Below, piece by piece: positions 35,252-62,051 of a DNA stretch of 64,000 nucleotides (the stretch's first letter is position 1; each line of letters starts with the position of its first letter). Origin of the DNA: Lumbricus terrestris (taxonomy: Eukaryota > Annelida > Clitellata > Crassiclitellata > Lumbricidae). A program made the position numbers and the translations under genes. A model generated the notes under the pieces. That model saw only the letters and a list, made by a program, of their open reading frames with translations, did no database searches and was not told the origin of the DNA. The stretch lies in the NCBI GenBank assembly GCA_949752735.1, contig OX457042.1, forward strand, positions 20,193,558 through 20,257,557, given 5' to 3'.

Positions 35252-38200
35252 ATGACTACCACGACGATGAAAATTCCGGAACCATTCTGTTGGGACAAGA
35301 CGTTCGAAGTCGGCGTGAGTATAACTGACGTCAAGTTGTATTTCTCAGTCTCTATAGGCTACACTTTCTAGCTGTTTTTCTTTCTGTTGCCTTCTTTGTA
35401 TCAGTTGTTGTCTTCTGTGTCTTTGTCAGTCTGTCTGTTTCTTCTCACTCAATGTCTGTATTGGTTTATTAACAAATATAGGCTTAACCCTTTGAAAACC
35501 ATTCCCTTTGATTGTGGTTTGGTGTCAGGTCGGGAGCGCCTCTGAGGAGTTCTCTTGAAGGGGCGCTATATAAATGTACGATTACAATTACAATTACCAT
35601 ACAGTGGATGGTCTGTCTTGCAATGCATTGATATAATAATTCATTTATTCGGGTAGGCTACTTAGACGACCGTTAGGCCTTTAATAATTATTATAGCACC
35701 CCCTCATTCATTTCATCCATTCAAGTATTTATATAGCGCCTCTTCAAGGAAACTACTCATGCATACTGCTCATGTAGTGCATGGTTTGTCTTGTAGTGTA
35801 CTTGGTCCATAGTCTATTGATAATCGTTCATTCATCTAGGTAGCCTACTTATTCCTATAGACCTATTGCGCCCCTCCTAGTTATTCTGCTCAAAGTTCCG
35901 AATGAATAAGATAAGCTCCTGTTCAAGAACAACCCCAAGATTGCAAACATGTGCAGAGATTCAAAATTACAGAAGTTCCCAGGTATAACATGAGAACCTA
36001 ATTTTCTCTTTTCTGCAAGCGATCATAGGGATCGGGAGCGCCTCTGAAGAGTCTTTTTAAAAGTAGCGCTATATAAATTAGCCTTTACTCTCGCCATATC
36101 GTGAGCTCGAAGCTGCCGTGAGAGCTGCTTGTGACGAAGCAGACGAAGGCAACGTTCCCACGGATTTGTGTCGCTTGCACTGAATAAGCATAATCTCGAT
36201 TCTCGCATGCAGCTGCCGCATCTGGGAACTGAGATTTGTCAATGACCGATCGAAGCACGATTTGAGCGCCTCTGAGTAGATTCTTGAAGGGGCGCTATAT
36301 AAATGCTCTGAATGAATGAATAAATGAATGAATGAATGAATTCGAGGGATGGCCTTGGGAAAACGTCAGCCTCCACACGTTCCGTTGTGAAACATGTAAA
36401 CTCTATGTTATATATTTTTATGCTATATCTTTTTAGCTGTGGCTGGACTGGGAGCGCCTCTGAGTAGGTTTCTTGAAGAGGCGCTATATAAGTTTTCGGA
36501 ATGAATGAATGAATATTTTATTTGATTCATTTCCATTCAAAGCGAATCCATAAAACTAAAAACTCAACACAAGTTACACAATGTTCACATTCCATTGTGA
36601 TTTTGTGATTATACATTGTAGCTTTAACCTACTTGCGTGCTCTCGTCTATCATGAAAACGTTTTGCTATAATACTCTGTCTCTGGGATCCTCTAATTTCT
36701 TTTTTATGTTATGTGCCTGTTGCAGTACCATCACCTTGATGAACAGCACAAGATGATGTTCATGTGCATCACTGACATGTGCAACAATCCAGATGACAAG
36801 ATGAGACTCGAATGCATGATTTGCTGCATGTGCGCCAACTTCAAGACGGAAGAGGTAGGAATGAATGAATGAATCAATGAATCAATGAATCAATCAATCA
36901 ATCAATCAATCAATCACCAGCTGCAGGTCCTCAATTTATCAATAACGAATCGATGAGAAAGTCAATCATCCAATGTGTCTGTCTATCTGTCTATCTGTCT
37001 GTCCGTCCGTTTGCATGCATGTGTCTCTGCCAGTTTCGCTAACTGTCCATCACGATTCGAGGATCTTTTAACATCCATCCATCCATCCATCCATCCATCC
37101 ATCCATCCAATCTACCTATCCATCCAATCTATCTATCTATCTATCTATCTATCTATCTATCTATCTATCTATCTATCTATCTATCTATCTATCTATCTAT
37201 CTATCTATCTGTCTGTCTGTCTGTCTGTCTGTCTGTCTGTCTGTCTGTCTGTCTGTCTGTCTGTCTGTCTGTCTGTCTGTCTGTCTGTCTGTCAATCCAA
37301 TTGAATCCATGCATCAATTCATCCAATCAACCAACCACCAATCCATCACTCCATCCATCCATCATTTAATCCATCCAATCAATCAATCCACTCATCCATC
37401 CATTTCCGGACGCGAATGCTGTAGAATATAGATGATAACCACAAAAATGCAACATGTAGTATATGAAGAAGTTTTCGTTGATTGTATTGTATTGCATTGT
37501 ATTGTATTGTATTGTATTGTATTGTATTGTATTTTTATTTGTATGTATCTGATTGGCTGCCTGTCGTTGTTTTGACTGCAGGTGATGATGATGTGCTGCG
37601 ACTTCCCAGACTTCAAGACGCACAAGATGGCGCACGATGAGTTCATGATGAAGATGAAATGCATGTGCTGTCCACTCACCGAGAAGGACATGCACTGTTG
37701 CAAGGAATGGTCAGTATAGTAAAAAAGCATTTTTTGGAGTAAGGATAATTTATTATTTCTACGGAGTTAGGGTAAGGTGAGTTATGCCTGATTAAGTTGT
37801 CCTGATTGCATCATGATCATGATCATACCTTTTTTGATAATTAAGTTGTCTTACTTGCATCATGATCATACCTTTTTATGTCGACCGTGTTTGTCATCGA
37901 CCCTGTTTGGTGTTCAATTAAATTGGTGAGTTTCTTCGCCACCGCTGTCCGTTTGGATAGGCGCCACGCCATCTAAGGTTGACCTCTCTGGCTATAGCCC
38001 GAGATTTAATGTATGAAATGAGCCAACATTGTGGGGCGCGGTGGTGTAGTGGTGGCGTCGTTGCCTTGAATCCGGAAGGTTCGAGGTTCGAATCCACCTC
38101 ATGTCGCCGCGTAGGGACCTTGGGCAAGTCCTTCACTCGCAATTGCTCAGCGCTTCGGCGAGCAACTCCGATGCAGTGTCCGCTCTGCAGTCGGGAGCGC

Positions 38201-39069
38201 CTCTGAGTAGAGAGCTTGAAGGGGCGCTATAACAAGTGCACAAACTACCAAATGCAAACAAACATTGAGAGGCGATGGCGTCGGTACGCATGCACTGTTA
38301 CACGGAGGCGCATAGGAAGGCAGCCTATGCTCAATTATATTGCAGCACTCTAGGCAATGGGTGTATTTAGAGGGGGCTGCGCGTTCAACCTCGAGATAAA
38401 GATTTCTCCAACTTTTAAAACTAATTCTGTGTACCTGCGATCAAGTCCAGTGGAAACAACCGCTCAAAATAGAACCCACATTTTTCTTGGCTACGCCGCT
38501 GAACTATGCCTGTTACAGTAGGGGAGAACGTCCAAGTTTGGGACAGGTCCTGCATTGAGACAGTGGCGGAACGGAAGTCATGGCTATATATTATCGCGTG
38601 TGGCGCCACCCAGGGAACGTATTTCATGTGGCGATTGATCATACGTCTTATCCTGCAATAAAGAAGACGTTTACAGAGATATTGGAAATTTGAATTTTCG
38701 GGCTAAAAATTAAATTTCTTACTCACTCAGTCTCAACCTCTGCATTAAATATTTGTCTATGGTGCCTACTATAATTCGTACCCAGATCTTATCTGGAAGC
38801 ACCATGCACTGTTTCTGCACGCTTCCTGAAAGCTTTTCTTTTCCAGGGGAATGATGGGGATCTTCGTACTGGGAGAGCCTCTGATTAGGTTGTACTGTGA
38901 GAGGCGCTTTATAAATTAAAAATATAGCATAGTAAACCAACTTGCTGTATTAGACTATAAATTAAATAATATTATGTCTTTATCATCTAGGCTGTGCAAC
39001 CACATCATGACTATGGACATGAAGTACAAGAATAAGCTCCAAGAATACCCATGTAAAACGACACGTTGA
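35252..39069 (+). CDS. Hemerythrin-like protein A, 4 exons, 132 aa, Cys/Met-rich
   Basis: Exons 35252-35314, 36726-36854, 37582-37709 and 38991-39069 (399 nt, in phase). The fold is a hemerythrin four-helix bundle. Signature motifs in order: PEPFCWDKTFEVG, YHHLDEQHK, NFKTEEVMM, THKMAHDEF, CCKEWLCNHI, MDMKYKNKL, each matching sipunculid myohemerythrin. Di-iron ligands by alignment are His29, Glu63, His78, His82, His111 and Asp116, but the place of His54 is Asn59. Spacing of the other ligands after it is identical to the family (4, 15, 4, 29, 5). It has 16 Cys and 21 Met in 132 residues, far above normal. There is no signal peptide, so it should be cytosolic. It ends YPCKTTR, unlike B and C. 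AATAAA lies at 39399. Classic members carry or store oxygen; this one may bind metal instead (inference). Confidence 0.92.
35528..35598 (+). mobile_element. L2-like tail with ATTACA repeat
   Basis: GGTCGGGAGCGCCTCTGAGG, then GGGGCGCTATATAAATGTAC and three ATTACA units. In intron 1 of gene A. Confidence 0.65.
36026..36513 (+). mobile_element. Three L2-like tail fragments in a row
   Basis: Tails GAGCGCCTCTGA...GCGCTATATAA occur at 36030-36080, 36264-36340 and 36452-36513, the last two with AATGAATG repeats. Between them is diverged LINE-like sequence (36090-36250). In intron 1 of hemerythrin gene A. Confidence 0.6.
36860..36916. repeat. AATG/AATC repeat
   Basis: Starts 5 bp after the donor of gene A exon 2 and changes from GAATGAAT to AATCAATC. 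Confidence 0.9.
37073..37292. repeat. Compound ATCC-CTAT-CTGT microsatellite
   Basis: About 8 ATCC, 21 CTAT and 21 CTGT units in series in intron 2 of gene A. Confidence 0.94.
37480..37533. repeat. ATTGT pentanucleotide repeat
   Basis: Ten near-identical pentamers about 50 bp before gene A exon 3. Confidence 0.92.
38032..38255 (+). mobile_element. tRNA-derived SINE, best-kept copy
   Basis: Head GGGGCGCGGTGGTGTAGTGG and B box GGTTCGAATCC at 38085-38095. Tail GGAGCGCCTCTGAGTAG, then GGGGCGCTATAACAAGTGC. It is in intron 3 of hemerythrin gene A. Confidence 0.9.
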
Positions 39070-62000: not shown

Positions 62001-62051
62001 ACCATGGATATGAAGTACAAGAATAAGCTCTACAACTACCCGGACATGTAA
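53045..62051 (+). CDS. Hemerythrin-like protein C, 4 exons, 128 aa, Cys/Met-rich
   Basis: Exons 53045-53104, 60001-60129, 60616-60743 and 61982-62051 (387 nt, in phase, GT-AG). It shares all hemerythrin motifs with A and B: PEPFCWDKTFEVG, LDEQHKMMF, NFKTEE, NHKMAHDEF, CCKEWLCNHI, MDMKYKNKL. Ligands His28, Glu62, His77, His81, His110 and Asp115 are present; the His54 place is Asn58. It has 12 Cys and ends YPDM like B. The first intron is 6.9 kb because a mariner-like element and a LINE landed in it. All splice sites remain good, so the gene looks functional. Confidence 0.92.
53150..53345. repeat. CT/CTGT repeat
   Basis: Begins about 45 bp after the gene C exon 1 donor. Cys/Leu/Ser open frames are artefacts. 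Confidence 0.9.
53704..55403 (-). mobile_element. Mariner-like element with about 190 bp inverted ends, degenerate
   Basis: Starts CAGGGTGGCTAAAAAAATGT and ends with the reverse complement (ATTTTTTTAGCCACCCTG), flanked by TA on both sides (53702-53703, 55404-55405). The inverted ends match imperfectly over about 190 bp. The minus strand has transposase remnants: VVWSDEKARFSRNSLGNQK, KRDFHEIRLVIKRVKLAKH in another frame, and LKQVLLLMWGLLPQDPTNKA near the C-terminal end. Frameshifts and a nested hAT MITE mark it as inactive. Confidence 0.87.
54322..54640. mobile_element. hAT-type MITE nested in the mariner element
   Basis: Ends CAGCGGCTCGCATGAG and GGTTGAGAACCGCTG, flanked by a perfect 8 bp duplication TGTTAGAG (54314-54321 and 54641-54648). 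It interrupts the mariner copy, so it is the younger insertion. Confidence 0.87.
56281..59580 (+). mobile_element. Near-intact LINE ORF2 (endonuclease and reverse transcriptase) with two in-frame stops
   Basis: It lies in intron 1 of hemerythrin gene C, sense. One frame runs 3.3 kb broken only by TAA at 56755-56757 and TAG at 57586-57588. The endonuclease shows HVNARSILPK, ALTETWLNE, GVIYRPPG, ILGDFNMD and ISDHLPIIAW. The reverse transcriptase shows NYRPISVLPFFAKIFEKLM, FLDVAKAFDSVNH, GVPQGSNLGPLLFLIYINDL and the catalytic FADDSNLF. It resembles Jockey/CR1-superfamily elements; the exact clade is unsure. The 3' end probably lies near 59920, where AT-rich sequence begins. Frame 57619-59580 alone encodes 653 residues. 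Confidence 0.9.
60190..60462. repeat. CTGT/CTCT repeat
   Basis: Pyrimidine-rich repeat in intron 2 of gene C, starting 60 bp after exon 2. Confidence 0.9.
61005..61148 (-). mobile_element. GTGCAGTT-family MITE, copy 3, one end missing
   Basis: It shares CTCCATGGTAAATTACTTCC and CACATTTTGTGTACAA with copies 1 and 2 but lacks the outer ~45 bp at its left end. Still, GGTTCCTAG is repeated on both sides (60996-61004, 61149-61157). It lies in intron 3 of hemerythrin gene C. Confidence 0.7.

Follow-up and report, generated by a model that had tools for sequence, protein, structure and literature searches.

A cluster of three hemerythrin-related genes

The 64,000-nucleotide stretch of Lumbricus terrestris DNA analysed here (assembly GCA_949752735.1, contig OX457042.1, positions 20,193,558 to 20,257,557 of the forward strand; hereafter the window, in whose positions all coordinates are given) carries a cluster of three genes, A, B and C, whose proteins are related to hemerythrin. 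Each gene was rebuilt exon by exon, giving four exons without an inner stop codon, and all nine introns have GT-AG boundaries. Gene A (35252-39069, + strand) encodes a protein of 132 amino acids with 16 Cys and 21 Met, gene B (50887-44853, - strand) one of 128 amino acids with 11 Cys and 19 Met, and gene C (53045-62051, + strand) one of 128 amino acids with 12 Cys and 19 Met; gene B sits between gene A and exon 1 of gene C. An earlier annotation made from the sequence letters (the original prediction) had proposed three intact genes at this locus, and the gene models bear this out: its span runs from the start of gene A to the end of gene C, and its counts of Cys in all three proteins and of Met in protein A are exact. 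The coding features are as follows, with iron ligands numbered as in myohemerythrin.

35252-35314, +: gene A exon 1 (residues 1-21), with donor GTGAGT, phase 0
36726-36854, +: gene A exon 2 (residues 22-64, with His25, the Asn at the His54 site and Glu58)
36837-36839, +: gene A codon of Asn59, at the His54 site
37582-37709, +: gene A exon 3 (His73 and His77), ending in phase 2
38991-39069, +: gene A exon 4 (His101, Asp106 and an A-specific C-terminal tail with one extra Cys)
50828-50887, -: gene B exon 1
50041-50169, -: gene B exon 2
50056-50058, -: gene B codon of Asn58, at the His54 site
48883-49010, -: gene B exon 3
44853-44922, -: gene B exon 4, preceded by an intron of 3,960 bases
53045-53104, +: gene C exon 1
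60001-60129, +: gene C exon 2, preceded by an intron of 6,896 bases
60112-60114, +: gene C codon of Asn58, at the His54 site
60616-60743, +: gene C exon 3
61982-62051, +: gene C exon 4

Kinship of the three proteins with hemerythrin is not due to chance. Against the Pfam profile PF01814 the E-values were 7.4e-5, 4.4e-5 and 5.5e-4 for A, B and C, with bit scores (23.7, 24.4 and 20.9) under the curated gathering cut-off of 25.3. Proteins A and B were also scanned with two TIGR profiles: TIGR00058 gave E-values of 1.8e-34 and 4.9e-36 (118.8 and 123.8 bits, under its cut-off of 131.85), and TIGR02481 gave scores of 62.5 and 65.0, above its cut-off of 51.75. When PDB chains were searched with phmmer, residues 7-123 of A matched the myohemerythrin of Themiste (1a7d, E-value 7.7e-24). 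No partner domain was found by Pfam in A, B or C; the proteins begin with MTTT, and no signal peptide was obvious by eye.

A homologue search with A alone found a single protein. Reference relatives were gathered through two profile searches (370 and 1,852 matches), and the best 120 matches of each gave 153 distinct proteins. In a maximum-likelihood tree of 120 columns and 154 of 156 rows (P0073 and P0099, of more than 150 residues, were left out), A, B and C formed one clade (100/100) whose sister was the protein P0002 (99/84), with the Capilloventer proteins P0060 and P0121 next to them, followed by P0046 and P0056. The stem leading to A, B and C is long, at 0.47 changes per column, in a tree that carries a warning for the deviating composition of these three proteins and whose bootstrap had not yet settled. 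The profile search and tree which the original prediction had called for place A, B and C as one clade of hemerythrin relatives.

All three genes have introns in phases 0, 0 and 2, and in A these fall after Gly21, after Glu64 and inside the codon of Trp107, that is, before helix A, after the residue adjoining Glu58 and inside a Trp codon of helix D. Phase-0 introns before helix A and at the end of helix B have been described for annelids and sipunculans, and for only some genes of the leech Helobdella an additional phase-2 intron midway along helix D (PMC2556348), a pattern which genes A, B and C match. Intron phases and tree position by themselves make an annelid source likely.

A missing iron ligand and a gain of cysteine and methionine

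In hemerythrins, His54 and His25 serve the iron that binds oxygen, His73, His77 and His101 serve the other iron, and Glu58 and Asp106 bridge the two. The original prediction had placed an Asn at the His54 site of all three proteins, and this was found by phmmer for A and by MAFFT for A, B and C. The six other ligands (His25, Glu58, His73, His77, His101 and Asp106) are kept in all three, as had also been predicted, and in A they have the spacing seen in Themiste myohemerythrin. In the phmmer alignment of A the nearest gap lies about 20 residues from the Asn and Glu58 follows four residues on, so that no other His can be placed at the His54 site. Residues Leu28, Phe55, Trp97, Leu98 and Ile102 contribute to the oxygen pocket; A, B and C have Met at the first of these, where each of the 153 relatives has Leu or Ile, and the other four are unchanged.

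His54 itself is His in all 153 listed relatives, the sole ligand change among them being a Tyr for His73 in P0111. This count is partly built in where the relatives come from UniRef/nr, because many of these seem, judging by name and accession, to derive from surveys like PMC5363010, which demand all seven ligands; for 79 of the 153, UniRef/nr is not the only source.

Cys and Met together make up 28.0%, 23.4% and 24.2% of proteins A, B and C, against a mean of 3.8% (standard deviation 1.4%) and a maximum of 11.2%, in P0002, among the 153 relatives. Eleven Cys positions are common to the three proteins. Between P0002 and the inferred A/B/C ancestor, which was set by a simple rule and not by likelihood, we counted 43 substitutions over A residues 7-123, of which 16 bring in a Cys or Met and one removes a Met. 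Such gains make up 3.3% of the changes between 3,000 random reference pairs (binomial 2e-13); against a codon-based null of 3/61, P is 9e-11. Two of the 16 gains are less well polarised, since one of four outgroups has Met at position 101 and three of them have Cys at position 13; the polarity of the other 14 is good. Within the same span A, B and C differ at 15 positions, and A alone has Cys or Met at 54, 68, 70, 86, 89 and 91, so that gene A has gone on gaining these residues. Several places that are nearly fixed in the family have been changed, namely Phe to Thr (A37), Val to Cys (A109), Lys to Met (A113) and Phe to Met (A117); Leu to Met (A52) and Ala to Cys (A104) are also changed in P0002. 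A distinct Cys/Met-rich hemerythrin subfamily with Asn54 in three of three copies is thus supported, and among the 153 relatives none shares this Asn together with such a Cys/Met content.

Upstream regions, constraint and repeats

About 200 bases upstream of the three genes are conserved among them, including an identical TATA-like box, TATAAAA. Within this region, a conserved block at 35104-35150 (+), with counterparts at corresponding positions ahead of B and C, holds the heat-shock-like palindrome GAATGTTC and a TGCGCAC core immediately before the TATA box. Matches to TGCRCNC, a metal-response-element-like core, are given as weak leads.

35143-35149, +: TATAAAA, TATA-like box of gene A
50991-50997, -: TATAAAA of gene B, identical to that of A
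52936-52942, +: TATAAAA of gene C, identical to that of A
35111-35117, -: TGCRCNC core upstream of the gene A TATA box
51022-51028: TGCRCNC core at the matching place upstream of gene B
52904-52910: TGCRCNC core at the matching place upstream of gene C
about 42808-42930, +: decayed exon 3 located between genes A and B, belonging to a fourth family member that is dead

The stretch past the stop codon is well conserved between B and C and partly so in A; intron interiors of the three genes do not align beyond short flanks. Synonymous changes account for 10.5 of 28 differences between A and B, 11.5 of 30 between A and C and 3 of 6 between B and C, with about 50 synonymous sites in 351 compared bases; by a rough test that ignores transition bias, these shares lie above the neutral expectation (P = 0.0036, 0.0004 and 0.042, respectively), and Nei-Gojobori ratios are 0.16-0.24. 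Genes B and C differ at only 6 of 351 compared coding bases while their intron interiors align no further than short flanks, which suggests either homogenisation of their exons or very fast intron turnover. The decayed exon 3 has a frame break and has lost its middle part and its splice sites, so one member of the cluster has been lost as well. An Rfam scan of the window gave nothing at gathering score, and hence no iron-responsive element by that test, and no tRNA was found in the window.

A Pfam scan of ten long open reading frames gave two matches above cut-off, both to retrotransposon parts, and, below the cut-offs, one further reverse-transcriptase match and two weak ones. A non-LTR (long terminal repeat) retrotransposon with endonuclease and reverse transcriptase domains occupies 56815-59580 (+), in the 6.9-kb intron 1 of gene C, and an incomplete match to reverse transcriptase, scoring under the Pfam cut-off, lies at 45387-46412 (+), on the opposite strand in intron 3 of gene B. 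Long simple repeats of TATC/TGTC, GA and GACA types are present at 37110-37300 (gene A intron 2), 42000-42260 and 63245-63500, and a short dispersed repeat, 85% identical between its copies, lies in introns 3 of A and B (38121-38199 and 47070-47148).

Possible functions and comparison with known systems

The MP II of Perinereis is reportedly induced by Cu and Cd, according to the title of one study. The MP II of Nereis/Hediste is an annelid hemerythrin reported to bind cadmium (PMC5219038, PMC2556348). Given this cadmium-binding annelid precedent, together with the directional gain of soft ligands and the loss of an oxygen-site ligand, we tentatively judge that the most likely role of A, B and C would be that of buffers of soft metals (Cu(I), Cd, Zn), with oxygen carriage probably weakened or lost. 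We would expect the site of the first iron (His73, His77 and His101, plus Glu58 and Asp106 as bridges) to fill as before, and the second iron, for which His25 and the bridging residues are left, to be held weakly or not at all. Soft metal ions would be bound by the thiols and thioethers of the Cys and Met gained on what is predicted to be a scaffold of the hemerythrin type. In a bolder version, which we regard with some doubt, selection would have turned a respiratory hemerythrin into a store for soft metals that resembles metallothionein, by abandoning half of the di-iron site and packing the scaffold with thiols and thioethers, and such proteins would have been overlooked through seven-ligand filters.

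Several observations weigh against a soft-metal buffer. The Perinereis metalloprotein P0051, unlike A, B and C, has seven ligands, only one Cys and five Met, so the known precedent lacks this chemistry, and it lies outside the clade of A, B, C and P0002, which does not support orthology with MP II. Part of the enrichment predates the loss of His54, as 4 Cys and 10 Met are already found in P0002, which lacks none of the ligands. In an idealised four-helix bundle, which omits the N-terminal arm and the C-terminal tail, Cys pairs closer than 8 Å numbered 11, 4 and 5 in A, B and C versus 9.0, 4.5 and 5.5 expected, without significant clustering (p = 0.27, 0.68 and 0.65); nor did the Cys line the core of this model (mean inward scores -0.10, 0.05 and -0.04, versus -0.07 for all free positions), and their lean toward the pole away from the iron was only marginal (p = 0.065, 0.15 and 0.09). 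The added Met could just substitute for Leu, Ile or Phe in the core. The metal-response-like core occurs once per gene near the TATA box, where it is shared by descent, and 37 times in the whole window.

Other functions would account for parts of the same evidence. A, B and C might be redox or sensor proteins. Their di-iron site, made lopsided by Asn for His54 and by Met in place of Leu28 and Thr110, would then not carry oxygen but react with it, with NO or with peroxide, and oxidation would be relayed or absorbed by the Cys and Met. The six retained ligands, both bridging carboxylates among them, imply that the metal site is still constrained, and the two Met that replace Leu28 and Thr110 lie near the centre of the idealised bundle (7.8 and 5.3 Å), but Pfam found no partner domain and the gain of Cys and Met over both surface and core exceeds the need of a local redox relay, and we consider this role unlikely. 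Somewhat less probable still is a sulfur-rich reserve or structural protein, either a counterpart of ovohemerythrin or a thiol-cross-linked matrix, with Cys and Met as the payload and iron binding as a relic. The breadth of the gain without a significant spatial pattern would fit, as would three copies with conserved TATA boxes, and the ovohemerythrin of leeches is said, in a title, to be a major yolk protein, an annelid hemerythrin outside oxygen transport; however, six ligands are kept in every copy, and the MTTT start shows no obvious signal peptide. No complete ovohemerythrin sequence was in GenBank at the time of PMC5363010.

A role as a sulfide or persulfide buffer, with free Cys binding hydrogen sulfide as proposed for the hemoglobins of annelids from sulfidic habitats (PMC5117596), has this annelid parallel and the 11 common Cys positions in its favour, but it leaves the gain of Met unexplained and appears improbable. 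We give an equally low standing to a hemerythrin that still binds oxygen, with Asn as a weakly binding oxygen-donor ligand and an incidental sulfur content: all remaining ligands and four of the pocket places are unchanged, yet both His54 and a Leu or Ile at the Leu28 place are invariant among the relatives. Finally, decay or artefact, to which the dead exon 3 copy and the scores under the PF01814 cut-off could point, is very improbable, because splicing is intact and synonymous changes are in excess; the open frames and the conserved upstream blocks also speak against it.

The original prediction knew of no described hemerythrin that combines a missing His54 with Cys/Met enrichment. The weakened oxygen carriage and the metal- or redox-handling role which it also proposed may hold, and follow from what is known of the family and from composition. 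None of the 153 relatives has the combination, and, among the matches listed in word searches of the open-access literature, no title or abstract opening named a Cys/Met-rich or Asn54 hemerythrin, nor did any in a word search on copper storage proteins. The claim has to be narrowed in two respects, as the enrichment is older in part, and as Asn in place of a His ligand is known elsewhere: PMC2556348, which covers 58 altered sequences from bacteria and one from an annelid, counts it in 7 of 71 ligand alterations.

Cadmium binding, defence against bacteria and the filling of eggs have all been reported for hemerythrins of annelids (PMC2556348, PMC5117596, PMC5219038), but we came across no sequence feature by which such members could be told from oxygen carriers. 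A, B and C offer one, namely a missing ligand and a directional gain of sulfur. The survey in PMC5363010 required a Pfam E-value within 1e-5 and the presence of all seven ligands; here A, B and C fail both, with six ligands of seven and E-values beyond that limit, although E-values depend on library size. Because both filters discard them, genes like these could be present yet unreported in survey data, and ligand-filtered surveys of this kind are blind to such members. If A, B and C do store soft metals, this would be a new chemistry on the hemerythrin fold, since P0051 has a single Cys.

Metallothioneins are rich in Cys and contain CC and CxC motifs. The proteins of genes A, B and C share this Cys content and these motifs; unlike metallothioneins, they are hemerythrin relatives of 128-132 residues with 19-21 Met, and no metallothionein profile matched them in Pfam at E-values up to 1. 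Bacterial copper storage proteins (Csp) are four-helix bundles lined with Cys which bind much Cu(I) (PMC9484137). Convergence on these proteins was considered but set aside, as the Cys of A, B and C did not line the core in our crude model. Themiste myohemerythrin (1a7d, 2mhr) is collinear with A over residues 7-123, with six ligands equally spaced, but has His54 where A, B and C have Asn, and the three proteins carry Cys or Met at many positions of its core and surface.

The nearest relative, P0002 (UniRef A0A1S6QCT2), is an annelid hemerythrin 60% identical to B, from a cluster of three annelid entries that bears the names Pectinaria gouldii and Halosydna brevisetosa, both of which are tabulated in PMC5363010. 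It shares many Met and Cys sites with A, B and C, in a milder enrichment (11.2% Cys plus Met versus 23-28%), and differs from them in having all seven ligands. Such a close relative with a full set of ligands constitutes a built-in control, with which a possible recruitment of hemerythrins for metal handling becomes directly testable.

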